A DNA stretch of 64,000 nt from Kiritimatiellia bacterium. GTDB taxonomy: Bacteria > Verrucomicrobiota > Kiritimatiellia > PWTM01. Shown piece after piece: positions 23,353 to 43,534 of the stretch. A program made the position numbers and the translations under genes. The stretch lies in assembly GCA_026417735.1 (NCBI GenBank), contig JAOACR010000009.1:265641-329640 (forward strand). Reading direction: 5' to 3'. The notes below the pieces were generated by a model. It was not told the origin of the DNA, did not search any database, and saw nothing but the letters and a program-made list of their open reading frames with translations. Numbering within the stretch: position 1 is the stretch's first letter; each line of letters begins with the position of its first letter.

Positions 23353-24912
23353 TCACCGTGCGTCGGTGCGGAGCAAGACCGTTGACGGTCCAATTGCCGG
23401 AGGTTTCTCACCGCACTCGGCCAGGTCAACGGATGCCGGCGGATCAACCCTGCTTGCCATCAGCTCATGCCGGAGCCGGGCGGGGCGCATGCCCGAGCCG
23501 GATGAGTTCCCGCCATCCCCGATCTCGGCGCTCCATGCCCGCACCAGCTGGCTGAGTTGCAGTACGAGATCGGGGTGTAGCGCTGCCAGATTCGTTGTCT
23601 CGCCCGGATCCGCCACGAGGTCATAGAGCTGCGCGGAGGATCCGTCCTGCTCACAGAGGAGCTTCCATCGCCCGTGCCGGATCGCCAGATCCGGCAACGG
23701 CGGCGGTGTACGACCATCGACGTACTTGCGGTCGGGTGGCCGCTGCCAGCAGATCGGTTCGGAGCGCGGCATCGATCGGCGTCCGAGCAGCGCCTCCGAC
23801 ATATCAAGCCCGTCGAATACGACCTCGGTGGGAGGTGCGATGCCCGCGATGCGCAACAGCGAGGGCGCCAAGTCCGCGGTACAGATCACCGACTCCTCAT
23901 CCCGGCCACCCACTGCTGCCGCCGGCATCAGCCCGGGCGCCCAGACAATCAGCGGGGAACGGATGCCGCCCTCGTAGAGCGTCGCCTTGGATCCTCGCAG
24001 CGGAACGGCAGAGCCTGCGCCGGGCTCCGGCCCATTGTCGGAGAAAAACAGCAACACTGTCTGGTCACGAAGGTCAGGTTCGCGAAGCCGTTCGAACAGC
24101 GGCCCGAGCTGCTCGTCCATTGTCTCGACAACTCCGCGATACAGAGCCCGCTTTGATCCGTCGCCGCGACGTTCGCGGGGGGGATACCATGGGCCATGGG
24201 GGTCATCCGGCCACACGTGGACGTAGAACGGCCGACCTTCTGCAGCCGCCCGCGAGATGAACGCCACCGCGGCGCCAACATATCCCGCGGTCAGTGAGGC
24301 GCGGTCATACCAGATCACCGGCCCGCGCCCCAACCGGTCGCTGCCGAGCGCATGCGGGCGGGGCGGCCGACCATCAGCGGTGTCGCACAGACCCAGCAGC
24401 CGCGGGCCAAGGCCCTCAAAATTGGTCAGCGATTCATCGAATCCATAGGCCGAAATCGAAGGTGCGTCGCCCACGTCTCGCTGGCCGCCAAGATGCCACT
24501 TGCCAAAGTGGCCGGTCGCGTAGCCCGCCGCCCGAAAGAATCGGGCAAGCGAGGGAGCGGCGGGATCCAGCCAATCGGCAACGCCCCGCCGGCGGTTGTT
24601 CTCGCGGGAATCGAGGTAGGAGGTGATGCGCCACCGCTGGGGATACTGACCGGTCAGAATGGCACAGCGGGTCGGCGAGCATACAGGCGAGTTGGCATAG
24701 AAGTGCCGGAACCGGCGCCCCTCGGCGGCGAGCCGGTCGAGATTTGGTGTCGCCACCACATCATTGCCAAATCCGGCGAGATCACCCCAGCCCAGGTCAT
24801 CGGCAAGTACGATCACCACATTGACCGGCCGCGCGGTGCCGGCCGCGAGCGCCCGCGCTGTAAGCATCGCGGCCGCCAGTAGCGCCGGCGCGCGACTCCA
24901 ACTCCCCCACAT
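23353..24912 (-). CDS. Secreted sulfatase (formylglycine type)
   Basis: A 519-residue type I sulfatase with a signal peptide (residues 8-24, ending ALAAG). Metal ligands appear in 'VLADDLGWGDL', and the formylglycine motif is CSPTR with Cys78 ('CSPTRCAILTGQYP'). 'GHFGKWHLGG' and 'VLLFFSDNGPEPG' supply further active-site residues. It should hydrolyse sulfate esters on polysaccharides or glycans in the periplasm or outside the cell, after activation of the Cys by a maturase that is not encoded here. The last 60 residues beyond 'YDLVADPGETTNLA' are a normal C-terminal subdomain plus a tail. GGGGAGG lies ten bases before the ATG. Confidence 0.9.
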   Translation of the reverse strand: MWGSWSRAPALLAAAMLTARALAAGTARPVNVVIVLADDLGWGDLAGFGNDVVATPNLDRLAAEGRRFRHFYANSPVCSPTRCAILTGQYPQRWRITSYLDSRENNRRRGVADWLDPAAPSLARFFRAAGYATGHFGKWHLGGQRDVGDAPSISAYGFDESLTNFEGLGPRLLGLCDTADGRPPRPHALGSDRLGRGPVIWYDRASLTAGYVGAAVAFISRAAAEGRPFYVHVWPDDPHGPWYPPRERRGDGSKRALYRGVVETMDEQLGPLFERLREPDLRDQTVLLFFSDNGPEPGAGSAVPLRGSKATLYEGGIRSPLIVWAPGLMPAAAVGGRDEESVICTADLAPSLLRIAGIAPPTEVVFDGLDMSEALLGRRSMPRSEPICWQRPPDRKYVDGRTPPPLPDLAIRHGRWKLLCEQDGSSAQLYDLVADPGETTNLAALHPDLVLQLSQLVRAWSAEIGDGGNSSGSGMRPARLRHELMASRVDPPASVDLAECGEKPPAIGPSTVLLRTDAR

Positions 24913-25044: not shown

Positions 25045-26385
25045 CTAGTTGATCCGGCTGATGCGACGGAACGAGCCGTTGTACTTCTTGGTGAATGCCT
25101 GCAGAAAATCCGCCCCTTCCTTGTCGATGCCATAGCCGATCGCATGCACGACGGGCGGCTTTTTCCCCTTCTTCGAGTAGCACTGCTCGTGCAGCAGCGA
25201 GAAGTGCTCGAAAAAGTCTTCTATGGTCCACCACTGCAGGTGATCCGGCATACGGGGCGGTTCCGGCCGGGGTGGATGCGGGCGAGCCGGCGTGCGGCGG
25301 GTTTCCCAGTGACCTTCGGTCGCGGGGCGCATACCGTCTTCGGTGAGCCGCGCCGGCTGTGGCGGCACCCACACGCGCTCCGTCTTCCATTCCATGTTCG
25401 CCATCGCGGTCTCGTAGGCGCGGATCGCGTCCGCGTTCTGGCGCCGCCATTGTTCGAGCTGTGCCTCCCAGGCGGACCGCTGATCCGCCGTCAACTCTTT
25501 GCGCACCCGTGGAATTCCGTCGGAGATGATCAGAATCGTGTCGGCGCCCTGCAGAAACGCGGCGGTGAGCGCCAGATCGAGTCGTGTGGTGCCGCCGCCG
25601 GCCTTGCGGCCGAGATCCACCGCCCGGACGTTGCCCTGCGTCAAACCATAGTTGTTCTTCGTATTGAGCGGCGAAAGAAACTTCTTTGCCTCGCGCTTGT
25701 TCTGTTCGGTGGCGGGCACCATCTCGTCCCGAAATGTCTGCGCGGCGTCCGCGAACGCGACCACATTGAACAGCGTCCGCTCGCTCAGCGCGTCAATGAC
25801 CTGACCGAGACGGTTCTTCACGCGCTCGAAGCCTTCGAATCCGCCGCGCTGTTCCTCGATCATGCTGATCGAGACGTCTACGCAAATCATGATCTTTTCA
25901 CCGCGCCCGCGGATGCCGAAGAAGTCGAACGCGGAGACGCCCTCGCCGAACCCTCCCAGCCCATAGCCGGTGCCCAGGCCGGCCCCCAGACCGATTCCAG
26001 TGATCGCCTTGAACTTCGGCTGGAAGCTGGTGCGGACGACCTTCGGATCCACCTTGATTTCCGGCATCGCGAGGGTCGAGGGTCGCGTCGCGACCAGGCG
26101 CGGCATCACCGCCGGTCGGCTCGAGCTGCGCTGCCGCTTCGAAACCTTGATCTGATGCTCCAGCTTGCGCGGCTCATACGTTTTGATCGGTGGCGGCGCA
26201 GTGAACACCGTGCGCTCATCGAGGAAGGAGCGGATGACCACCCAGGAGCCGAACACGAGCAGCGCCGCGACATGCAAGCCCAGGCTGATGCCGCCAACGA
26301 TGAGCAGCACCCGCCGCTTCTCCTCACTGAGTTTGCGGTAGCCCAGCCCCGACAGCAGCACGCCGAGGTCCAGCCTCGGTCTCAT
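25045..26385 (-). CDS. TonB-like anchored protein with von Willebrand A domain
   Basis: A 446-residue protein with a short cytoplasmic N-terminus, one membrane helix (about 27-51), a proline/lysine-rich periplasmic stalk (60-160) and a VWA domain. The MIDAS motif is intact: DVSIS at 170-174, 'GGGTTRLDLAL' for the Thr, and 'ILIISDGIPR' for the Asp. An insert of about 100 Pro/Arg-rich residues interrupts the second half of the domain. The anchor and stalk resemble TonB, but the TonB C-terminal domain is replaced by VWA. It is last in an operon with ExbB and two ExbD proteins, 19 bases after the second ExbD, so it probably takes the place of TonB as the mechanical output. Start ATG 26385 has GGAG upstream. 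Confidence 0.75.
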   Translation of the reverse strand: MRPRLDLGVLLSGLGYRKLSEEKRRVLLIVGGISLGLHVAALLVFGSWVVIRSFLDERTVFTAPPPIKTYEPRKLEHQIKVSKRQRSSSRPAVMPRLVATRPSTLAMPEIKVDPKVVRTSFQPKFKAITGIGLGAGLGTGYGLGGFGEGVSAFDFFGIRGRGEKIMICVDVSISMIEEQRGGFEGFERVKNRLGQVIDALSERTLFNVVAFADAAQTFRDEMVPATEQNKREAKKFLSPLNTKNNYGLTQGNVRAVDLGRKAGGGTTRLDLALTAAFLQGADTILIISDGIPRVRKELTADQRSAWEAQLEQWRRQNADAIRAYETAMANMEWKTERVWVPPQPARLTEDGMRPATEGHWETRRTPARPHPPRPEPPRMPDHLQWWTIEDFFEHFSLLHEQCYSKKGKKPPVVHAIGYGIDKEGADFLQAFTKKYNGSFRRISRIN

Positions 26386-26404
26386 GGGCGGTCTCCGCGC
26401 ATCG

Positions 26405-26842
26405 TCAGTCTCCCCCCGCCGCAAAAGTGACGTTCTTGATACCCGCCCGCGCGCACGCGTTCATCACGTCAACCACGCGCTGGTGGCGGGTCTTGTCGTC
26501 CGGCTGCAGCGTGATCATCGGCTCGGTCTTCGCCGCCTGGGAGGCGAGGCGATACCGCACCAGCACCTGGACCAGCTGGGGCAGCTCGGTCGAGTCGGGC
26601 GCGTCATACTCGAGGCCGTTCAGTACGACACGGCCGGTTTCGCGGATCTCGATCACCTGCTCATCGGCCATGTCCACGGTTTGCGCCTGCGCCAGCATGC
26701 CCGGCAGCCGGATGCCGAGGTCCGCTTCGGACTTCATCAGGCTCGCGGTCGCGATGAAGTACGAGAGCAGCAGAAACACCATGTCGATCAGCGACGAGAC
26801 GTTGACGTCCGGATCATCGATCTCGTAGGCCGGCGCTCTCAC
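26405..26842 (-). CDS. ExbD/TolR-type biopolymer transport protein (second copy)
   Basis: A 145-residue protein with a short cytoplasmic N-terminus, one membrane helix containing the proton-relay Asp (SSLIDMVFLLLSYF, Asp20) and a periplasmic ExbD fold. The start is GTG, overlapping the stop of the first ExbD as GTGA, with GGAGG in front. It would work with the ExbB homologue to turn proton flow into motion of the anchored VWA protein. Confidence 0.85.
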   Translation of the reverse strand: MRAPAYEIDDPDVNVSSLIDMVFLLLSYFIATASLMKSEADLGIRLPGMLAQAQTVDMADEQVIEIRETGRVVLNGLEYDAPDSTELPQLVQVLVRYRLASQAAKTEPMITLQPDDKTRHQRVVDVMNACARAGIKNVTFAAGGD

Positions 26843-27264
26843 GGCTCGCCTCCGGTCTCCGAGGGATTGAACACCGCGAAAATGAAATCGTCCACCCCGA
26901 TGGCGGCCATCGCGTTCAGCACCTTTTTGATGTGCCGATGCTCTGCGTTCGCGTCGGCGCGAAGGTAGATTTTCGTGGATGGAGTCTCGCGAAGACGCTG
27001 CTGCACCTCCGCCTTCAGCTCCTCCACGCTCACTGGCCGGTCCCCGCTGTAGAGCGAGCCATCGGAGAAGATGTTCACTGTCCAGCGATCCGGCCGCTCC
27101 TTCGGCACAACGCCCTTCGTCGCGGTGGGCAGCTCGAGCTTCAGCGTCCGGGTCTGGCTAATGGACGAAGCGCACATGAAGAAGATCAGCAGCAGAAAGA
27201 CCATGTCAATCATCGGGGCCATCTGGAACTTGGCCTCTTCGGGTCCTTCGCGAACGATGCGCAT
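26839..27264 (-). CDS. ExbD/TolR-type biopolymer transport protein (first copy)
   Basis: A 141-residue protein with the membrane helix 'APMIDMVFLLLIFFM' holding the conserved Asp (residue 20), then a periplasmic domain with 'STKIYLRADANAEHRHIKKVLNAMAAIGV'. GGAG precedes ATG 27264; six extra upstream codons are in frame but lie in the spacer after exbB. Two different ExbD genes behind one ExbB suggest a hetero-oligomeric stator. Confidence 0.87.
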   Translation of the reverse strand: MRIVREGPEEAKFQMAPMIDMVFLLLIFFMCASSISQTRTLKLELPTATKGVVPKERPDRWTVNIFSDGSLYSGDRPVSVEELKAEVQQRLRETPSTKIYLRADANAEHRHIKKVLNAMAAIGVDDFIFAVFNPSETGGEP

Positions 27265-27282
27265 GCCCGGTCTCCGCCGCAA

Positions 27283-28143
27283 TCAGCCCTGGGCCGCTGG
27301 GGGGGCGCCGGTGGCGGCCGGCGCGGGCATCGGCGCGGTCGCCTCGGGGAGCGTGACCTTGTCCAGCGGCAGCTCCCCGTTGCGGAGCCGGTCGAAGATC
27401 GCGGACAGGTGATGGCTGACGTTACCGGCGAGCCGGCCGACGCGCGCCATGTTGCCCTGGAAACGGGACTTCAGGTGGAAGTAGAAGAACATGAAAGGAA
27501 TGCCAACGATCAGCCCGAACGCCGTCGTGATCATGGCCTCGCCGATGTCGTTCGCGAGCTTCTCCGGGCTGCCCATCATCCCCAGGCCGATTTTCTGGAA
27601 CGCCTTGATCATTCCGCTGACGGTGCCCAAGAGCCCGAACATCGGCGCGACCGAGGCGATGATGGACAGGTAGCTGATCGGCCGCAACCCATTCGTGTTC
27701 TCCTCCACGGCGGCCTCCTCCATCGCCTTTTCGAGCACTGCGACCTCCGTGATGCCGTCGCTGAGGCGCAGCAGCCCAGCATTGATGATGTTCGTCAGCA
27801 CACCGGGCGAGGCGGCGCAGGTGGCACTGGCGGCACGGAAGTCGAGGTTGCTGATCTGGCTCTGGATCAGCGGTACCAGCGAGGACTGCACCATTTTCGG
27901 TTCACGCGTGAACAGAAACCCGAAGATCGTCAGCGCAGTGCCCGCAATGGAGAGCAGTGCGATCGGATACATTGCCCAGCCGCCGGTTTTCCAGAGGCCC
28001 CAAAGGGTGATCGCCTGCTCCTGCGGCGCGGCGCCAGCCGCGGGCGACGCGGGAGCCGGCTGCTGCGCAAGCACCGGTAAGGCGCCCAATACCAGTGCGA
28101 GGGCAACGCTAAGGACAACAGCTGCGCGGGTCGTTCGGTTCAT
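27283..28143 (-). CDS. ExbB/TolQ/MotA-family proton channel protein
   Basis: A 286-residue protein with a cleavable-looking N-terminal signal (residues 8-26), then three membrane helices typical of MotA/TolQ/ExbB: 'MYPIALLSIAGTALTIFGFLF', 'IASVAPMFGLLGTVSGMIKAF' and 'GEAMITTAFGLIVGIPFMFFYF'. The conserved Thr/Gly-rich second and third helices are intact. The added signal peptide plus a Pro/Ala linker is a variant seen in some ExbB proteins. AGGAAAGG lies before the ATG, which overlaps the upstream TPR-like gene by four bases (ATGA). Confidence 0.9.
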   Translation of the reverse strand: MNRTTRAAVVLSVALALVLGALPVLAQQPAPASPAAGAAPQEQAITLWGLWKTGGWAMYPIALLSIAGTALTIFGFLFTREPKMVQSSLVPLIQSQISNLDFRAASATCAASPGVLTNIINAGLLRLSDGITEVAVLEKAMEEAAVEENTNGLRPISYLSIIASVAPMFGLLGTVSGMIKAFQKIGLGMMGSPEKLANDIGEAMITTAFGLIVGIPFMFFYFHLKSRFQGNMARVGRLAGNVSHHLSAIFDRLRNGELPLDKVTLPEATAPMPAPAATGAPPAAQG

Positions 28144-29210
28144 GGTGTGGCCTTTCCTGGCGCAGAGGGCGCCGTCGGGGGATGGGTCTCCGTTTCCCTG
28201 AGGTACCTCAAAACCTTTTCGTTCATGTTCTCTTCGGTCCCGAAGAAAATGCCGGTGATGTTCGGATCTTCCGGCGCAGCGGTCATGCCGGCCTCCATCA
28301 TGGTCTTCAGCCGGATGCGAGCTTCGTCACCCCAATCGGTCCCGGGGAAGAGCCGCGCGACTTCGTAGTACACATCGCGGGCGCGATGGACCTCGTTCAG
28401 GTCCTCATAGCACTGCGCAGCAAGCATCAGCGCGTCGGGAAATGTCTCGATGTCCTTGGTCTCGTGCAAATAGGAGCGGATCGCGGCGTCCAGCGCCCCC
28501 CGGGGCTGTTCGCGAGCGTACAACAGCTGCGCTCGGGCTAACCAGTACACTCCCCAGGCGGCGTCGCCGACCTCCGGCTCGCGCTGCCGCACCAGGCCGG
28601 CCTCGGCCTCGTCAAGCCGGCCGATGTCGGCCAGGCACATCCAGGCGCGGATCGCGGCCGACTCACCGTACGGGTGCCAGCCGGCGGCGGCGCCGGCGGC
28701 GGCGAAGAGGCGGTGCGCTTCCGCCAGCCATTTCGCCGCGTCCACCTGACCGGTACCCCCGAGCCGGTTGGCCTGTTGCGCCGCACGCACATAGCACCAG
28801 GCGGCCCGGACGGTCGGCTCGAATGCGTTGTTCTGCTTGAGGTCCAAGAACGGCAGCGCGGGCGCGACCGCGGCGTGCAGGCGCCGAGCCGCGTTCAGCC
28901 ACCGCCGCGCCACCATGTCCGCATAGGCCGCCTGTTCGGGGATCTGAATGCGGAACTCCGCCTCGTCAAATTCATCGGCGGTGAACTGCGAGTACACGCC
29001 GGGCGGGGAGTTGGTGAGGCGGAAGAAGATGGTCGGCCCTTGCCGGCGCACCAGCACCACCTCGCGGACTGCTTTCTCTTCCTTCACCAGGCGCGTGAGC
29101 ACGCCTGGCTCGACCACGCGCGCGGAGGTACCGGTCGCCGGCGGCGCGGTTTGGGCGGCCGCCCCGCTCCCCAGCGCGGCAGCGACAAGGATCGCCGCGA
29201 TACGCGTCAC
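28140..29210 (-). CDS. Periplasmic TPR-like protein, partner of the ExbBD-VWA system
   Basis: A 356-residue protein starting with GTG that overlaps the stop of the upstream TPR gene (GTGA). A signal peptide (residues 1-19, ending AAAQ) is followed by a beta-rich segment ('VVLVRRQGPTIFFRLTNSPPGVYSQF') and then helical repeats of TPR/SEL1 character, including 'FPDALMLAAQCYEDLNEVHRARDVYYEVARLFPGTDWGDEARIRL'. It is likely to be a periplasmic scaffold. No catalytic motif is seen. Confidence 0.65.
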   Translation of the reverse strand: MTRIAAILVAAALGSGAAAQTAPPATGTSARVVEPGVLTRLVKEEKAVREVVLVRRQGPTIFFRLTNSPPGVYSQFTADEFDEAEFRIQIPEQAAYADMVARRWLNAARRLHAAVAPALPFLDLKQNNAFEPTVRAAWCYVRAAQQANRLGGTGQVDAAKWLAEAHRLFAAAGAAAGWHPYGESAAIRAWMCLADIGRLDEAEAGLVRQREPEVGDAAWGVYWLARAQLLYAREQPRGALDAAIRSYLHETKDIETFPDALMLAAQCYEDLNEVHRARDVYYEVARLFPGTDWGDEARIRLKTMMEAGMTAAPEDPNITGIFFGTEENMNEKVLRYLRETETHPPTAPSAPGKATP

Positions 29211-32008
29211 ATCCGGCCCCCCAGCTTCTGGCGGAGCTCGCGCGCGCTCGCGAACTCCGGCAGGTCGGCGAGATCGCTGCGGGCAAGAAACTCATCGAGC
29301 GTTTCGGTCGCGGCCCGCACACGGCCGAGCTTCGCCAGGCATTCCGCCCGTGCGAGGTACGCCTTGCCGACCCACGCTTTGTGCCCGCCGTACAACACGT
29401 AAATGCGTTCGAAATACGCGGAAGCCTCCTCGAACTTGCGGCGCGCCATCCACAGCTGGCCGCGCGCATAGAGCGCCTCGGGCCAGCGGTCCTTCCACTC
29501 CTTCGCGCCGAGCAGGTCGCGATAGGCCGCGTCGGCGAGGTCGTACTGCCCCGTCTGCGCATACAGGCGGCCGAGCCTCATCAGAGCGTCCGCGGCCGCG
29601 TCACTGGTCGCGTACACCTCACGGATGATGTTGTACTGCACAATCGCCAGTTCCAGATCGCCCTCCGCGACCGCCTGCTCGGCGATCAGCCGGCGCGCGG
29701 CCAGCGCGTAGTCGGTTTCCGTGAAGTCGCGGATCAGCGCCTCCGCCGCGGCGCGCGCGAGCTTCGGCTGGTTCGCGGCGGAGGCGGCGTCCACGATCCA
29801 CTCGAGCACGCCGGCGCTCGCGAACCGCAGGTTCTCTTCGCGAAGCATGAACTTCGCCATCGCGGCCTTCTCCGCATCGGACGTGCCGGCGTCGTACATC
29901 AGCACGCGTTCGAGCCGCAAGGCAAGCGTGTACTGACGTTCCTCAAGCGCACGCTTCAGCATGTCGCGCAACCGGGCCCAGGCTTCCTCGCCATGCGGGC
30001 GGCCCGCCGCGCGGCTGCGGTCCACGAACTTCTCCAGGATCAGGTCCACGCCCAGCTCTGAACGGTCACCGCCGTAGCGCGCCACCGCGTCCAGGAAGAG
30101 CGCCAACGTGCGTTCGGGCTCTCCCTTGTCCCAGTAGCACTCCCCCATCCAATAGATCGCCAGCGGCACGTTCGATTCGGGTCGCGCGCGCGCGATGTAC
30201 GCCTCGAAGTGGCGGATCGCATCGTCGTAGCGCTTGAGCTCCCGCAACATCTCGCCAGTGCGGAAGGCGGCGTGGTTGTAGAGCTCGATGTTGAGGTTCT
30301 CGGACTCCATCCCCTTCGTGTAGCGGCGGACCGCCTCCTCCAGCTCGCCAAGCGCACCGGAGATGTCGCCGAGCAGCACGTGCGCCTCGCCCAGCAGCTT
30401 GCTCCCCGGATATTGATCCAGAAAGCGCAGCAGCTTGCGCTCCGCCGGCTCATAGGCCGCCAGCGCATAGTCACAGGTCGCGGAACGGAACAGTGCGTCC
30501 TCCGCGTACATCGAGGCGGCAAAATCCTGCAGCAACCGATCGAAGTTCGGGCGCGCCTCCTCGTACTTGCGATCGAAAAGGAACGACATGCCCAGCCAGT
30601 AGAGCGCGTCGACCTCGCGCTCGCTGCCCGGAAATTCGCGCAGGATCCGCCCAAAGTGCGCCTGCGCATCGGCCAGCTTCTCCTCCATGAACGACGCGTA
30701 CCCCAGCAGGAACAGCACCTCCGCGATGTCTTCGTGTTTCGGGCTGACCTCGAGCGCCCGGCCGAGCACCTGCAGCACCTTCGGCCAGTTCTGTTCGTTT
30801 GCATACACCTGGCCGACCATCAGCGAGACCGCGTCGTAGTGGGGCCCGCCGGGATACCGATCCAGATACTCGTGGCCGCGCGAGAGACACCGGTCTGGCG
30901 GGCGCACCCGCACCGCACACAGAAACGAGAGGTAGAGGCATTCCTCCTGTTTGTCCGCGGGCGCGTCGAGATGCAGGTGGTAGAATAGGTCCGACGCCTC
31001 CCGTAGTCGCCGCGTCTCCATGTAACTACGCGCGATGCGGAACATCAGCTCCACATCGTAGTTCGGGATCTTCTCGATCGCCTCCAGCTCGGCCTCGATT
31101 TCCGCGACGGTCTCCTGCGCGCGCAACAGCTCGCGGGCAAGTCCGAGATGGCGCTGCAGCCGGCGCACGCGCAACCGCCAGAGCTCCAGCTGTTCCTGCG
31201 CATTGAGTCGCAGCAGGTCGTGCGGATAGACGAGCCGGTAGATCCAGAGCGCATCGCGGTACTTGTCGTCCGCGAAGAGCTCGTCGCCCGCCTCGAGCGC
31301 GGCCATGTTCAACGCGACGCTGCGCGACGCGAACGAGCCGCGCTGCAGCAGCAGCGGCACCATTGGATACACTTTGTCCACCGCACCGTCCTTGAGGTAG
31401 GAGGTCGCCAGCATCGCGGCCGCCCAGTTGCGGCGGTAGAGATCGGGCGCGGTGCGGTAGACTTCGAGCAGCAGCGGCTCCGCCGGCTCCCACTTCTCTT
31501 CGGCGAGGTGGCAGCGAGCCATCGAGACGAAAATGTCAATGCGCAAGTCGAGCGAGTATTCGTAGGTCTTCAACGCCTTCTGATAGGCTCCGAGCGCCTC
31601 CGCAAATCGGCCCTCGTACCGCCATGTGTCAGCGATGAAGATCGCGACCAGATGGGCGTTCGCGCCGTACGGGAACTTCTTCAGGTATGTGTCAAACACG
31701 TTGCGGCATTCGGCGAACTGCGCCAGGAACATATGACAGAGTCCGAGATGGTAAAAAACGTCCTCCATCTCCGCGCGCATGCTCGGCTGATCGGTGTCGC
31801 CAAACCATTCGACCAATTGGCGCAGAGGAGGAATCGCGTCCTCGTAGGCACCCCGCGCGAGCGCGGCCGCCGCCGCCGCGCGCGTTTCTTTGTACGTGTC
31901 CTGCGGGCTCGCCACCCGCCCCCCGAGCCAGAGGACCGCCACCGCACAGAGGAAGACGCAGCGCACCGACCGCCCCGCCGGGGATGGCAAAGACAAACCG
32001 CGGATCAT
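29207..32008 (-). CDS. Large periplasmic TPR-repeat protein, first gene of the ExbBD-VWA operon
   Basis: A 933-residue protein from ATG 32008, with a signal peptide (about residues 14-36) and then about twenty tetratricopeptide units across the whole length, for example 'AEVLFLLGYASFMEEKLADAQAHFGRILREFPGS' and 'VDALYWLGMSFLFDRKYEEARPNFDRLLQDF'. It resembles YbgF/BamD-type TPR arrays that organise Tol-Pal-like envelope machines. It should sit in the periplasm and present a long superhelical binding surface. The promoter lies 12-40 bases upstream, inside the end of the dnaE-like gene. The start could shift a few codons. Confidence 0.75.
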   Translation of the reverse strand: MIRGLSLPSPAGRSVRCVFLCAVAVLWLGGRVASPQDTYKETRAAAAAALARGAYEDAIPPLRQLVEWFGDTDQPSMRAEMEDVFYHLGLCHMFLAQFAECRNVFDTYLKKFPYGANAHLVAIFIADTWRYEGRFAEALGAYQKALKTYEYSLDLRIDIFVSMARCHLAEEKWEPAEPLLLEVYRTAPDLYRRNWAAAMLATSYLKDGAVDKVYPMVPLLLQRGSFASRSVALNMAALEAGDELFADDKYRDALWIYRLVYPHDLLRLNAQEQLELWRLRVRRLQRHLGLARELLRAQETVAEIEAELEAIEKIPNYDVELMFRIARSYMETRRLREASDLFYHLHLDAPADKQEECLYLSFLCAVRVRPPDRCLSRGHEYLDRYPGGPHYDAVSLMVGQVYANEQNWPKVLQVLGRALEVSPKHEDIAEVLFLLGYASFMEEKLADAQAHFGRILREFPGSEREVDALYWLGMSFLFDRKYEEARPNFDRLLQDFAASMYAEDALFRSATCDYALAAYEPAERKLLRFLDQYPGSKLLGEAHVLLGDISGALGELEEAVRRYTKGMESENLNIELYNHAAFRTGEMLRELKRYDDAIRHFEAYIARARPESNVPLAIYWMGECYWDKGEPERTLALFLDAVARYGGDRSELGVDLILEKFVDRSRAAGRPHGEEAWARLRDMLKRALEERQYTLALRLERVLMYDAGTSDAEKAAMAKFMLREENLRFASAGVLEWIVDAASAANQPKLARAAAEALIRDFTETDYALAARRLIAEQAVAEGDLELAIVQYNIIREVYATSDAAADALMRLGRLYAQTGQYDLADAAYRDLLGAKEWKDRWPEALYARGQLWMARRKFEEASAYFERIYVLYGGHKAWVGKAYLARAECLAKLGRVRAATETLDEFLARSDLADLPEFASARELRQKLGGRM

Positions 32009-32019
32009 TCTGGAGCCCA

Positions 32020-32048
32020 ACTCTAGGTACGCCGTTCCGACAAATCAA
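32020..32048 (-). promoter_or_regulatory. Promoter of the TPR-ExbBD-VWA operon, inside dnaE-like gene end
   Basis: On the minus strand TTGATT (32048-32043) and TAGAGT (32025-32020) are 17 bases apart. The -10 ends 11 bases before ATG 32008, so any leader is at most about five bases and too short for a normal ribosome site. It overlaps the last codons of the dnaE-like gene. Confidence 0.55.
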
Positions 32049-35000
32049 CCACCAGCCGCACACTCCGAGGTCCCGCACATCGCTCCAACGCCCGCACCAG
32101 CGAGGCGCCGACACCCACCGGCGGCGGCCGAGCGGATCGAAGCGGCGCACCGAGCAGCCGCAGCGGCGTCGGTCCTGGATGCGCCCGCGCAGCAGCCACA
32201 AGTTCGTGGAGCAGCGACCCCTCACCACCGGCCGGCACGCTCACGCACACTTCGACCACCCGTCGCACCGCCGCCTCCAGCGGCCACCATCTGCCGACGG
32301 CAGTCAGCCCACCTCGTTCGCGCCGCACGGGCACCACGACGGGCTCGGCCGGCCATGCGGTGGTGGGCAGCCATCCGGGCGGAATGCCGATTTGCTCGAC
32401 CCCGTCGAACATGTCCAGTGTCACGCCCGGGGCGAGCTCGTCCGCAACGCGGAGCGGCACCCCTGTGGCGAGGCTCATCCCGTCCGACTCTCCCTGAGCC
32501 GGCACCGCGGTTCGCAGCCACCACTCCCACGGCCGCAGCGGATGTGGCGAGATGACGACCCCCAGCAACTCCCGCTCCGCGGCCCACCGGTCGGCCAAAA
32601 CGTCGGTGAGCGAAGGGGGCGATCCAGTGGCGCAGGTCTCGTTGAACAACAATGTCTGGCCGTGTCGAACATCACGCGCGGCACTCGCGGCCGTCCAGAT
32701 CGCGTCGAGTTCCGCGAGCAGCTGCGCGCGAGGAGCGCCGAATGAGTCAAACGCTCCCGCGCGCACCAGGTGGGCCAGCGTGTTGCGACCGAGGGCGACC
32801 CCGGCCAGCCGCTGCGCGAAATCCGCAAGGTCGCGGAACGGCCCCCGTTGTTCACGTTCGGCGACCCACATCGCGGCCGCTTCCGGCCGGACACCACGGA
32901 TGGAAATCCACCCCAGCCGAATCGCGCCCGCGGTCGCGCGTGGAGTGACCATACTTTCATTCGCATCCGGTCCGAGCAGCGGAACGCCGCGCGCGATCAC
33001 CTCCCGCAGCAGCGGCCGTGCCCGCTCCGGGTCGCCCGCCTCCGCCGCCAGCGCGGCGGCATAGAACACCAGCGGTTCGCGCGCCTTCAGCCAGGCGGCC
33101 CGCCAAGCATGGGTCGCGAGAACCGCACCCCGAGCCAGCGACACGCGCCGGTGGAAACAGTCCAACACCGCCGCCCACACCGCCTCGATTTCCCTGTCCG
33201 GCAGACCCCGCCCACGTGCGCCATTCCGAACCTGTTTCCACACCCGCCGCCGGAGTTCCTCGTCGCGAGCAGACTCTGCCCGGCGCGCGAGGTCCGCAAA
33301 CTCGGGTGGCAGGCGCGCCAGCCGCTGGAGCACTTGCACCGCCTGCTCCTCGTACAGCAGCATTCCGCCCGTTGGAGCCAGGAGCGGTTGCACCGAGGCG
33401 TCGACCCGTTCTGGCGGACGGCGTCCCTCGAGTGCCGCCTCCAGCTCCGCGGCCAGCGCCGAAGACTCCGCCGCCAGGATCGCCAGCCAGGGAGCCAGGT
33501 CCTCCACGCGGCGGGCACCCCATTTTCGGCACCGTTCTGCGACCGCCGGCAGCTCCAGCCCTGGGATCCCCGCGACGTCGCCCCGCCGGATCAGCTGCGC
33601 GACGTCCACCTCGCGACCATCCACCCGCTCGAATGCGCCCGCTTGCTCCGGCGAGCTGGCGCGAAGCGCAGCGCCGGCCTCGCCCAGCAGCGCCGCGGTA
33701 CGGCTCGCCGGCACATCAGTGCGCACCAATCCAAAACGCGGCAGATCGCGAACCTCAAACTGGGTCACCGCATCGCCATCGGCAGTGCGGTAGAGGGGCA
33801 CGATCGAGCCAACCGGGGAGTCCGCCAGCACCAGCGCGGTCGGATGGGCCGCCCATGTGCGGGGGAGGCCTTCGAACATCGCCGCAAAATGAACCAGCTC
33901 GGACCATCGGCCGGCCCTCGCCAAAAGCCGGTCCCGAACGTCGGCCCGATCTAACCGCGGCTCGGATCGAACAGTGTCGCCCAGTATCGCGATCAGTTCT
34001 TCCACTTGGTCCGCTGGCACGCCCAGCACCCGGGCGACCTCGCGGACCGCGGAGCGCGCGCCGAACACAACACGGGTGCCCGCATGCACAACACAGTCCT
34101 CACCGTAGCGCTCGCGGACCAACGCCATCAGGCTGGCCCGATGATGCGGCGCGACATCCAGCGAAAGCTCCGGCAGTGCGGGATGATCCGGGTTCAAAAA
34201 CCGCTCTGGCGGCAGGTCCCAGCGCAGCGCAAGGACATCCGTCAGCTCCAGCGACCAGGCCAGCAGACTGGAAGCAGCCGCCGCACGGGAGGGCGTCACC
34301 GCCAGCCCTCGCTCCCGCGCCGCACGCACCAGGTCCGCGTGCACCAGCAGGTAGTTGGCGACGCGCGCGCGGATCGCGGCCTCAATCTCCCGATCGAGCC
34401 GCCGCTCGGCCGCAGCTGTGCGGGTGGGTGATGCAACCACAGCGGCCCACCGCCGCCGAAACCCGGCCCAGGCTAGCCGTCGCAGCTCGTCGGCGGAACC
34501 GCCGACGGCCGCGCCATCCGGCGGACGGTAGCGGGGAAACCGCGACGTGTCGGGTGGCCAGGGATTGAGCTGGCATCGCTGCGCAATCTCGATCGTCGTC
34601 TCCAGCGCCTCCGGCGCGTCCGCAAACGCCGCCGCCATTTCCTCGGGCCCTTTGAGGTAAAATTCCGAAGAGTACGACGTTCCGTCCTCCGCCCGCGCGA
34701 TCCCGCGGCGGACACAGCGCAGGCATCGATGAGCCTCGGCCTGGTCGCGGCGCAGGTAGTGAACGTTGTTGGTGGCGACGCACCGCACCGACGCCTGCCG
34801 CGCAACCTCCCGCAGCGACGCAATCAGTTCGGCCTGGCCAGCCAACCGCTGGTTCTGCAGCTCGACGAACACCTGGTCCCGCCCAAACGCCTCGCTCAGC
34901 CGCCGGAGCGTCTCCACCGCCTCCTTCGCGCGACCGGCGCGGCACAGCCGGGAAATTTCGCCGTTGTTGCCGCCGGTCAGCAGGATCAGCCCCTGCGTGT

Positions 35001-35373
35001 GCCGAAACAGTGTGGACTCGCTCAACACCGGCCGGCCGTGCGCCGCGGATTGCAGCTGCGACTCGCTCACCAGCCTCACCAGCGAGAGCCACCCTTCGGC
35101 GGTCTCCGCGATCACCACCAGATCCGGCCCCGTCGCGCCGGCGGCCAGCGCGGCGCGTGGCGCCATTTCGAACTCGACGCCGAAGATCGGCCGCAGCCCC
35201 TGACGGCGTGCCTCGCGCATGAACAGCGGCGCCGCATGCAGCGACGCCGCGTCGGTCATCGCGACCGCGGGCATGCCGGCGTCAGCGACCGCGACCATCA
35301 GCTCCGGAATCCGTACGAGGCTGTCCAGCAGACTGTATTCGGTGTGGACGTGGAGATGGACGAACCCCGACAT
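32023..35373 (-). CDS. DnaE-like DNA polymerase III alpha homologue with degenerate active site
   Basis: An uninterrupted 1,116-residue frame with the full DnaE layout: PHP-like N-terminus ('HLHVHTEYSLLDS', 'FGVEFEM'), palm, fingers ('TGGMLLYEEQAVQVL'), and a C-terminal part. The polymerase motifs are broken. The PDFDIDF motif that holds the two catalytic aspartates reads PELSLDV (Glu402, Ser404), GPGRGSAAGS reads TPSRAAAASS, KFDFLGL around the third Asp reads RTDVPAS (Asp553 kept), HAGGVVI reads HPTALVL, and FNKSHS reads SLARGA. The PHP site has also lost TDH (reads TDA). It is therefore very unlikely to polymerise DNA. Intact length argues for a retained non-catalytic role. It starts 18 bases after a CPBP protease gene. 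A normal DnaE must exist elsewhere. Confidence 0.85.
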   Translation of the reverse strand: MSGFVHLHVHTEYSLLDSLVRIPELMVAVADAGMPAVAMTDAASLHAAPLFMREARRQGLRPIFGVEFEMAPRAALAAGATGPDLVVIAETAEGWLSLVRLVSESQLQSAAHGRPVLSESTLFRHTQGLILLTGGNNGEISRLCRAGRAKEAVETLRRLSEAFGRDQVFVELQNQRLAGQAELIASLREVARQASVRCVATNNVHYLRRDQAEAHRCLRCVRRGIARAEDGTSYSSEFYLKGPEEMAAAFADAPEALETTIEIAQRCQLNPWPPDTSRFPRYRPPDGAAVGGSADELRRLAWAGFRRRWAAVVASPTRTAAAERRLDREIEAAIRARVANYLLVHADLVRAARERGLAVTPSRAAAASSLLAWSLELTDVLALRWDLPPERFLNPDHPALPELSLDVAPHHRASLMALVRERYGEDCVVHAGTRVVFGARSAVREVARVLGVPADQVEELIAILGDTVRSEPRLDRADVRDRLLARAGRWSELVHFAAMFEGLPRTWAAHPTALVLADSPVGSIVPLYRTADGDAVTQFEVRDLPRFGLVRTDVPASRTAALLGEAGAALRASSPEQAGAFERVDGREVDVAQLIRRGDVAGIPGLELPAVAERCRKWGARRVEDLAPWLAILAAESSALAAELEAALEGRRPPERVDASVQPLLAPTGGMLLYEEQAVQVLQRLARLPPEFADLARRAESARDEELRRRVWKQVRNGARGRGLPDREIEAVWAAVLDCFHRRVSLARGAVLATHAWRAAWLKAREPLVFYAAALAAEAGDPERARPLLREVIARGVPLLGPDANESMVTPRATAGAIRLGWISIRGVRPEAAAMWVAEREQRGPFRDLADFAQRLAGVALGRNTLAHLVRAGAFDSFGAPRAQLLAELDAIWTAASAARDVRHGQTLLFNETCATGSPPSLTDVLADRWAAERELLGVVISPHPLRPWEWWLRTAVPAQGESDGMSLATGVPLRVADELAPGVTLDMFDGVEQIGIPPGWLPTTAWPAEPVVVPVRRERGGLTAVGRWWPLEAAVRRVVEVCVSVPAGGEGSLLHELVAAARAHPGPTPLRLLGAPLRSARPPPVGVGASLVRALERCAGPRSVRLVVDLSERRT

Positions 35374-41995: not shown

Positions 41996-43519
41996 CTATT
42001 GAGCCGGCGGCAGCGCCGCCCGCCACCCCGCCCGGAGCTGAGCGGTCAGTTCGCGCACCAGCTCCGCAGTCTCGGGACGGCCGGCGATGTTCTCGTTCTC
42101 CTGCGGATCCGTCGCATGGTCATAGAGCTCGACCGCGTCCACCCGATTCGTGTCCCGCCGGTCCACCCAGAGCGTGAACCGATAGCGCTCCGTTCGCATC
42201 GAATATCCCATCAGCGGGCGGCCCTCGTGCGTGCGGGGGTACTGGCTGAACGCTGCGCGCTTCCAGGGACGGGTCGGGTCCTCCAGCACCGGCCGGAAAC
42301 TCGTGCCCTCGATGTGGTCCGGCAACGGCAGACCGCACAGCTCCGCGAGCGTCGGATAGATGTCCACAAACTCGACGATCGCGTCAGTGGCGGTCCCCGC
42401 ATATCGCATGCCCGGTACGGAGACGATCAGCGGTACGCGGGTGTCAAGCTCCATGTTCGTGTGCTTGCACCATGCGGCGTGCTCGCCGAGTTTCCAGCCG
42501 TGATCCCCCCAGACGACCACGATCGTGTTGGTCCGCAGCCCCAGACGTTCGAGCTCGTCCAACACGCGGCCGAGCTGCGCATCCATATAGCTGAGCGCGG
42601 CGTAGTAGCCGTGTTTCAACGTGCGGGCCAGCTCGTCCGGCAGAACGCGATCGCCGGGAATTCCCTCATACGCGCGCAGCTCGCTGCCCGGCGGCACCGC
42701 ATAGGGCGGTGCGCCGCGCGGCGGAAAGGGATTCGGCGCCAGCGCGATCGCATTGCGATCGTAGAGGTCCCAATACTTTTTCGGCGCGACAAACGGCAGA
42801 TGCGGCCGAATGAAGCCGACCCCGAGCCAGAACGGCCGGTTGGTCCGTGCGATGTCGCGCAGCGCCGCGATCGCGAGGTCCGCCAGCGCGCCGTCATGGT
42901 AGGTGGAATCCGGTACGTCCGCGCACTCGTAGGCTGGCCCGTAGTCGCGCGGGCGCAGCGGCGGCAGTCCCCGCGCCGCACGGGCCTCTCGCTCCGCGAC
43001 CTTCCGCGCCACCACCGCACGGTTTTCTGGCAGCGCGTACGTGCCGTGCGGTACCTTCGGCGAGCTCCACGGCACCGACCACGATGCCGGGTCGTCCAGC
43101 CCTCCATGATAGAGCTTGCCCATACCCTGCACGAACCAGCCGTGGTTCTTGAAGAGCTGCGGCAGCGTGACCACCCCCTTGCCCATCGTGCGGCGAAAAT
43201 GGGTTTCCAGATCGTAGATCCGGGTCCTGTCCGGCCTCGCGCCGGTCATCAGACTGGTCCGCGATGGCGAACACACCGCCTGCTGGCAGTAGGCGCGGCG
43301 GAACACCATCCCCTCGCGCGCCAGCCGGTCGAGATTGGGGCTGCGCACGTGGGGAGCGCCATAGCAGCCGAGCTCCGGCCGCAGGTCGTCCACCGCGACG
43401 AACAGCACGTTCCATTGCGGCGCTGCTGCACTCGCCGCCGCGCACACCGCCGTCCACAAGCCCATGAACCCTCTGTACATTCGGGCACCTCCCGCCGGAG
43501 CGCTCCACCGTCGGATCAT
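41996..43519 (-). CDS. Secreted sulfatase, iduronate-2-sulfatase-like
   Basis: About 507 residues from ATG 43519 (GGGAGG eight bases upstream); an equally plausible ATG at 43480, also with GGGAGG, gives a more compact signal peptide ('MYRGFMGLWTAVCAAASAA'). The formylglycine motif is CSPSR (Cys83 from the first start), with metal ligands in 'FVAVDDLRPELGCYG' and 'VVVWGDHGWKLGEH', and 'DLETHFRRTMGKGVVTLPQLFKNHGWF', typical of iduronate-sulfatase-like enzymes. It would desulfate glycans outside the inner membrane. It is a different subfamily from the sulfatase at 23-25 kb. Its stop faces murB. Confidence 0.9.
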   Translation of the reverse strand: MIRRWSAPAGGARMYRGFMGLWTAVCAAASAAAPQWNVLFVAVDDLRPELGCYGAPHVRSPNLDRLAREGMVFRRAYCQQAVCSPSRTSLMTGARPDRTRIYDLETHFRRTMGKGVVTLPQLFKNHGWFVQGMGKLYHGGLDDPASWSVPWSSPKVPHGTYALPENRAVVARKVAEREARAARGLPPLRPRDYGPAYECADVPDSTYHDGALADLAIAALRDIARTNRPFWLGVGFIRPHLPFVAPKKYWDLYDRNAIALAPNPFPPRGAPPYAVPPGSELRAYEGIPGDRVLPDELARTLKHGYYAALSYMDAQLGRVLDELERLGLRTNTIVVVWGDHGWKLGEHAAWCKHTNMELDTRVPLIVSVPGMRYAGTATDAIVEFVDIYPTLAELCGLPLPDHIEGTSFRPVLEDPTRPWKRAAFSQYPRTHEGRPLMGYSMRTERYRFTLWVDRRDTNRVDAVELYDHATDPQENENIAGRPETAELVRELTAQLRAGWRAALPPAQ

Positions 43520-43534
43520 CGCCGCACCTCCCAC

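Follow-up and report, generated by a model that had tools for sequence, protein, structure and literature searches.

An ExbB/ExbD operon with a VWA protein as candidate force arm in a Kiritimatiellia bacterium

The Ton and Tol systems are ExbB/ExbD-type arms with known jobs. What might such a motor do when the protein anchored beside it ends in a VWA domain? This question is raised by an operon of a Kiritimatiellia bacterium, found at positions 25045–32008 on the minus strand of a 64,000-nucleotide stretch of contig JAOACR010000009.1 (the window) and encoding, in this order, TPR1, TPR2, ExbB, ExbD1, ExbD2 and an anchored VWA protein. On balance, we think it somewhat probable that these genes specify a proton-driven ExbB/ExbD motor with a VWA arm and an energised role in the cell envelope. 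The original prediction, made from the DNA letters, had also proposed a motor that pulls on, or signals through, a VWA protein; the motor with a VWA arm gains support from an anchor that keeps the S-x3-H part of the TonB/TolA motif, and from the coincidence of loss of its His with loss of a Ser in ExbB. The parts, their order, the motor and metal sites, the co-loss and the co-occurrence reported below are read from sequence, and the folds from prediction. A conserved metal-ion-grip arm would show that the output domain of the motor is exchangeable, and the operon would offer a testable energised envelope process in Planctomycetes–Verrucomicrobia–Chlamydiae (PVC) bacteria, whose envelopes are poorly understood.

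Architecture of the operon

All six open reading frames (ORFs) lie where they had been predicted, with 4-bp overlaps or near-abutting frames throughout. The genes are as follows, with the evidence for each (TPR, tetratricopeptide repeat; AF2, AlphaFold2):

29207..32008, minus strand: TPR1, a secreted TPR array of 933 amino acids from its ATG with CpoB/BamD/PorW-like repeats (Pfam TPR repeats, hydrophobic N terminus, conserved first gene of the operon)
28140..29210, minus strand: TPR2, secreted, 356 amino acids, with a non-TPR N-terminal region followed by TPRs (weak Pfam TPR matches)
27283..28143, minus strand: ExbB, an ExbB/TolQ-type channel subunit of 286 amino acids with an extra N-terminal hydrophobic segment (PF01618, E 1.2e-27)
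26839..27264, minus strand: ExbD1, ATG start (PF02472, E 7e-29)
26405..26842, minus strand: ExbD2, a second, diverged ExbD (PF02472, E 8e-19)
25045..26385, minus strand: VWA protein, force-transducer candidate, ATG start, 446 amino acids (Pfam, orthologue starts, AF2 fold)

The motor subunits belong to the ExbB/TolQ and ExbD/TolR families: PF01618 and PF02472 score over their cut-offs, and the Thr ring, the Glu and the transmembrane Asp are all present. ExbB carries an N-terminal hydrophobic segment (residues 4–29) plus three further hydrophobic regions, and the two ExbD proteins are 26% identical, in agreement with the predicted added segment and two different ExbDs. Across the 44 sequence pairs defined in the next section, the proton-path residues of ExbB are almost invariant (T174 44/44, T207 44/44, E202 43/44), as are the proton-site Asp residues of ExbD1 (Asp26 in TTG numbering, 43/43) and ExbD2 (Asp20, 44/44). 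A search with ExbD2 alone against solved structures gave no match to E 0.01.

Coincident loss of an anchor histidine and an ExbB serine

VWA residues are numbered here from the 459-amino-acid TTG frame; subtracting 13 gives ATG numbering. The two elements compared are:

26221..26313, minus strand: VWA anchor helix, residues 38–68, with S47 and H51 of the TonB/TolA motif (AF2 model, alignment)
27949..27951, minus strand: Ser65 in the first transmembrane helix (TM1) of ExbB (aligned with the E. coli ExbB/TolQ TM1 Ser)

The alignment of Ser65 with the TM1 Ser of both E. coli ExbB and TolQ was obtained in three MAFFT modes with the MG1655 sequences. In the accessible text of PMC12905483, a TM1 Ser of ExbB/TolQ is reported to contact TonB/TolA, and on our reading the aligned residue is the Ser meant there.

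The comparison comprised 44 pairs from loci that have both proteins, each distinct VWA-anchor/ExbB-TM1 sequence being counted once. Among them are distant paralogues, and two of the pairs, L058 and L067, form long branches (loci carry L labels, and relatives genome labels from G000, the window's own genome, onward); loci without the VWA protein or ExbB lie outside it, for example L039/L076, L052/L111, L092, L093 and L098. The S-x3-H half of the TonB/TolA motif is well kept, with S47 in 39 of the 44 pairs and H51 in 41. The three losses of H51 (Tyr in L046, Thr in L049 and Leu in L101) are each accompanied by a change at ExbB position 65, to Asn, Phe and Ala, respectively. By contrast, among the 41 pairs that retain His51, Ser65 is kept in 40 and is Cys in the remaining one. 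This co-loss, which was first noticed while reading the alignment and then tested, and so not blind, has a hypergeometric p of 3.0e-4, the lowest among the scanned VWA-anchor × ExbB column pairs. The TonB structures point to this same contact. A tree built without these columns places three His changes and four Ser changes, each a separate event. Because all three His51 losses coincide with loss of ExbB Ser65, the co-loss supports docking of the VWA anchor in the TonB site of ExbB, with the reservation that three events are few. It would provide evidence of docking from sequence that is independent of AlphaFold 3 (AF3) modelling.

The VWA domain, its metal site and a juxtamembrane box

Beyond the anchor, the VWA protein has three further elements (MIDAS, metal-ion-dependent adhesion site):

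26113..26178, minus strand: juxtamembrane box, residues 83–104, YEPRKLEHQIKVSKRQRSSSRP (column conservation; D-box/motor-box candidate)
25048..25950, minus strand: periplasmic VWA domain, residues 159–459, with a poorly conserved insertion at ~310–400 (AF2 fold)
25864..25878, minus strand: MIDAS D183-V-S185-I-S187, with T280 and D302 (alignment)

In the Pfam scan, which covered eight window proteins, the VWA protein matched VWA_2 at E 1.7e-4, under the Pfam cut-off. The predicted fold, however, is clear. The AF2 model (18 sequences; mean predicted local distance difference test score, pLDDT, 76) has a single anchor helix at residues 34–68 and a VWA fold at 159–459, for which the best VIA-align match is ITIH1 (Z 18.1, root-mean-square deviation (rmsd) 2.1, 162 residues); BatB is also among the fold matches. 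The linker, residues 83–161, has pLDDT <50; the expected TonB-like anchor and stalk appear as a helix followed by a low-confidence stretch. The MIDAS, likewise expected to be intact, is nearly invariant (D183 43/43, S185 41/43, S187 41/43, T280 41/43, D302 42/43). No TonB_C or other TonB-domain match was found in the VWA protein by Pfam or a further profile scan, and the alignment shows no Asp in residues 38–68 of the window's anchor.

MIDAS domains also act as internal grips, as in Mdn1, whose MIDAS forms catch bonds with ligands (PMC8837202, accessible text). A MIDAS that holds better under load would suit a pulling arm, though only by analogy. The juxtamembrane box has a mean column conservation of 0.72, versus 0.75 around the MIDAS. 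In TonB, the strand that pairs with the ExbD dimer is the D-box, 10–15 residues away from the membrane helix (PMC12905483, accessible text); the box of the VWA protein lies ~15–20 residues from its helix and might play a similar role. The AF2 monomer has no strand at this box.

Conservation of the gene set

The operon was sought in related genomes, as the original prediction had advised, and was found there. In the panel of 58 relatives, 27 have a VWA match and 16 have the high-scoring matches that we term core VWA (G000–G003, G005–G008, G010, G020, G021, G027, G034, G039, G044 and G055). Scanning named genomes yielded 40 VWA loci, mostly metagenome-assembled and many labelled Kiritimatiellae, Lentisphaerae or Verrucomicrobia, or uncultured. 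All five partners are kept in 24 of the 25 named loci with >6.5 kb upstream, and distant loci mostly keep TPR1-(gap)-ExbB-ExbD1-ExbD2-VWA. The return of all six genes in the same order in distant relatives marks a set under joint selection and not a chance cluster.

Separation of the genes in relatives, which would have spoken against the prediction, was seen once: on a rumen Kiritimatiellae contig (L092), the 8.9 kb upstream of a VWA orthologue contain none of its five partners, and two adjacent ExbD genes lie on a different contig of that genome. A few distant loci (L056, L060, L064 and L065) have a VWA gene without a nearby motor; those in L060, L064 and L065 are distant VWA paralogues whose stalk matches, and L065 has them in tandem. 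The operon is permuted in L110/L048, where an 821-amino-acid VWA frame precedes TPR1-TPR2-ExbB-ExbD1-ExbD2. Near a contig end, L039 (536–919) has an ExbD1 with an unrelated N terminus, probably an assembly fault.

Two secreted proteins that accompany the VWA protein

Flanking ORFs were compared all against all. BLAST clusters identified two families of secreted proteins directly after the VWA gene, X (~140–217 amino acids; 18 of 41 loci) and Y (~400–700 amino acids; 15 of 41); flank families consisting of antisense ORFs, single-clade neighbours or sulfatases were set aside. In a recount with profiles, 19 of the 37 loci that extend >0.7 kb downstream have X, and 13 of the 31 that extend >2.8 kb have X plus Y. 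X occurs in 14 of the 16 core-VWA genomes and in 0 of the 42 other relatives, Y (E <1e-80) in 13 of the 16, and in a phylum sample of 174 genomes, some shared with the 58, X occurs in 10, all among the 11 with a VWA match >590 bits; these counts are inflated by shared ancestry. In G000–G003 and G006 the X-Y pair and the VWA gene are on different contigs, so the co-occurrence is more than adjacency.

In Y, Pfam finds a PEGA domain (E 7e-7). The AF2 model of the protein (mean pLDDT 86) has at its C terminus a LecA/PA-IL fold (Z 14.8, rmsd 2.1, 117 residues), which was also recovered by Foldseek (E 1.8e-5, target TM-score 0.79) and by profile search (E 0.016). Asn509 and Asn520 are invariant and Glu510 nearly so; we take these residues to lie in the region of the LecA Ca/sugar loop. 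X has no match over the Pfam cut-off and no solved-structure relative by profile up to E 1. The X-Y pair may be the missing outer partner of the motor, a lead drawn from co-inheritance; it supplies named candidates, and the fold of one of them, Y, suggests that the target is a glycan.

Linked outer-membrane proteins had been proposed as something to look for. The operon itself has no gene for an outer-membrane receptor; in the window's genus, the unlinked X-Y pair is followed by a Porin_5 barrel gene (E 6e-12 in G000; also in G001, G002 and G003). In G000–G002, a lysophospholipid transporter–acyltransferase fusion, presumably LplT-Aas-like from its domain order, precedes X-Y. The row of fusion, X, Y and Porin_5 (L141 4814–11657, in G000:C20) suggests a connection with the upkeep of lipids or of the outer membrane. 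The X-Y-porin cluster of G003 adjoins a Bat operon with BatD and two VWA proteins (L145 6559–11899, minus strand). O-antigen ligase-type and polysaccharide-flippase genes follow Y at L084 13046–15415 and L111 3704–5236, possibly by chance.

Comparison with known systems

Literature searches for the combination of VWA with ExbB/ExbD returned PMC12204202 (2025), in one case together with a Rhodopirellula transcriptome paper (PMC2754498), and a search for Kiritimatiell, ExbB and TonB returned none. In its accessible text, PMC12204202 describes a Tichowtungia vWA transducer family by synteny and AF3 models, calls its function unknown, and arrives through AF3 modelling at the same reading, a vWA force arm on an ExbB/ExbD motor. 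By its described features, the operon belongs to this family. Both are from PVC bacteria and share a TPR gene, a tolQ-like gene, two different tolR-like genes and a vWA protein with anchor helix, His motif, disordered linker and C-terminal vWA domain. Whereas the published family is described with one TPR gene, the present operon has two; and whereas many, not all, of the published transducers have an SHLS motif, only its S and H are kept here. The main text of PMC12204202 contains none of the terms MIDAS, lectin and PEGA, and no mention of X- or Y-like partners was found in the accessible text. New relative to that text are the second TPR gene, the MIDAS conservation, the His-Ser co-loss and the X-Y partners. 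The same paper describes a TolQ-linked TPH-vWA family without ExbD, which likewise couples a vWA protein to a TolQ-like pentamer; here, in contrast, there are two ExbDs and the VWA anchor lacks an ExbD-type Asp.

TonB-ExbB-ExbD shares with the operon the 5:2 motor family, the S-x3-H anchor helix and a juxtamembrane strand candidate, but has TonB_C where the operon has a VWA domain with MIDAS, two ExbDs, two TPR partners and no receptor alongside. Tol-Pal (TolQRA-TolB-Pal-CpoB) shares a TolQR-type motor and a periplasmic TPR partner; the operon, however, lacks TolB, Pal and a TolA C-domain, and TPR1 is far larger than CpoB. Bat operons encode BatA/B VWA proteins, TPR proteins, BatD and MoxR, and are not known to include ExbB/ExbD. 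Membrane-anchored VWA and TPR proteins are encoded together in both, but neither MoxR nor BatD is among the eight window proteins scanned. In the Vibrio TonB2 system (TonB2, TtpB2, TtpD2), a TPR protein is likewise essential to an ExbB/ExbD-driven system, but there is a TonB and the function is iron uptake (PMC6957404, accessible text); the TonB2-like locus of the present genome is ExbB-ExbB-ExbD-TonB-TPR.

Mechanism and alternative readings

If the operon does encode a motor with a VWA arm, five ExbB subunits would surround a pair of ExbD chains, probably ExbD1 with ExbD2, in a 5:2 stator, and the N-terminal helix of the VWA protein would dock on the outside of ExbB. The conserved stretch past the membrane, a candidate strand, probably pairs with the periplasmic ExbD dimer, like the TonB D-box. 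A disordered Gly-rich linker would then lead to the VWA domain, whose metal site would grip an acidic residue of a partner, and proton flow would tension this VWA–partner link. TPR1 and TPR2, both secreted, are the likely first partners, and X and Y, co-inherited with the motor, the likely outer ones; the lectin-fold end of Y probably touches an envelope or surface glycan. The most likely job would be to maintain or build some envelope structure by energised action, in parallel with the TonB-type systems that the cell also has. A more ambitious version, which we regard as a tentative possibility, is a third proton-powered trans-envelope force system beside Ton and Tol: an ExbB5/ExbD1-ExbD2 heteromotor would pull the TPR scaffold and X-Y by a MIDAS grip, perhaps one that tightens under load, the lectin-like head would hold an envelope or surface glycan, and an outer-membrane Porin_5 barrel adjoins the pair in the genus.

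Several observations weigh against a docked, pulling VWA arm with X and Y as its outer partners. The co-loss comprises only three events, with which a paired sign test is unable to reach 0.05, and 24 other inter-protein column pairs have smaller p values, most of them common to one clade. Pairwise phmmer alignment to Serratia ExbB sets Ser65 opposite a Gly, with low posterior, and where E. coli ExbB has its TM1 Trp, most of these ExbBs have V or I. The LS half of SHLS is lost from the VWA anchor (F58 in 28 of 44 pairs, V62 in 27 of 44). We know of no MIDAS ligand. The window's operon has no adjoining X or Y, the pair being at G000:C20:107428-109553, and X is absent from the core-VWA genomes G010 and G044.

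A Tol-Pal-like role, in which the VWA arm would recycle or position a complex linking outer membrane and wall and so do part of the TolB-Pal job where there is no recognisable TolB, seems to us rather unlikely. It fits the lack of a TolB_N (PF04052) match in the genome, although TolB can escape PF04052, and the OmpA/Pal-type domain found in all 58 relatives, a profile that is uninformative because it is present in 58/58. TPR1 and TPR2 match CpoB/YbgF repeat models; TPR1 scores 163 bits with TIGR02795 (cut-off 90.1), summed across 7 stretches of a 937-amino-acid array, and 51 with PRK10803 CpoB against a cut-off of 383. The position of X-Y after the lysophospholipid fusion in three genomes of the genus also suits such a role. 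However, core VWA in only 16 of 58 relatives makes the role dispensable in the class, and the genome has a separate ExbB-ExbD-TonB_2 (TonB_2/TolA-like) locus. Still less likely is a scaffold or signalling device that does not pull: its motor would open when required, and the VWA protein would hold the TPR proteins as a ligand-gated anchor. VWA and TPR partners do occur together in Bat operons, and BatB is among the fold matches, but near-invariance of the proton path and the retained S-x3-H of the anchor speak against this reading.

A gliding-motility or surface-adhesion motor we consider improbable. VWA folds are known from adhesins and from the gliding of Myxococcus, and gliding is tentatively suggested in PMC12204202 (accessible text). 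Y does have a lectin-like domain. Yet no motility or adhesin gene was recognised, judging from example sequences, among flank families in at least 3 of 41 loci, and we know of no motility phenotype. Least probable is a TonB substitute that energises TonB-dependent receptors: the motor type and anchor motif agree with it, but the VWA protein lacks TonB_C. Plug domains occur in 53 of 58 relatives with or without VWA (none found in the VWA genomes G007 and G043); they do not track VWA, and we rule out a TonB-receptor locus. Among seven PF01618 matches in the genome are the ExbB-ExbB-ExbD-TonB-TPR locus, which adjoins a TonB-dependent receptor, and the ExbB-ExbD-TonB_2 locus. Since these TonB-type systems are present in the same genome, the VWA protein is not a cell-wide replacement of TonB, and the part of the original prediction that set it in place of TonB falls. 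A motor with a VWA arm acting on the envelope remains the reading we prefer.

The genome also holds a second TPR-TPR-ExbB-ExbD-ExbD set without a VWA gene (L072; G000:C4, ~150–155 kb), seen also at L107 12909–18369 and L079 12829–16086. In G005 this set directly follows Y of the VWA operon, and in G008 its two TPR genes do so before the contig ends. Its ExbB keeps the TM1 Ser, though no force arm is seen beside it.

Gene calls and neighbouring genes

Two starts were revised. Orthologues of ExbD1 begin at the ATG at 27264, the longer TTG frame opening at 27282, and those of the VWA protein begin at the ATG at 26385, the longer TTG frame opening at 26424. TPR2 contains an LPxLDLxxNN segment in which P and NN are invariant. 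A crude lipobox script, run without SignalP, matched TPR1 in 1 of 31 sequences, TPR2 in 0 of 34, X in 1 of 19 and Y in 1 of 15. Promoter and terminator scans gave no signal above shuffles. PADLOC gave no match for the six operon proteins, and a defence system is ruled out on that ground.

As had been noted, none of the operon genes encodes an outer-membrane receptor. The downstream neighbour of the VWA gene is a sulfatase gene (window 23353–24912, minus strand), and a further sulfatase gene lies at 41996–43534 (minus strand). Upstream, a DNA polymerase III alpha-type gene (window 32023–35373, minus strand) ends 3–15 bp before TPR1; two relatives (L075 and L078) have this neighbour too, so it may be co-transcribed with the operon.

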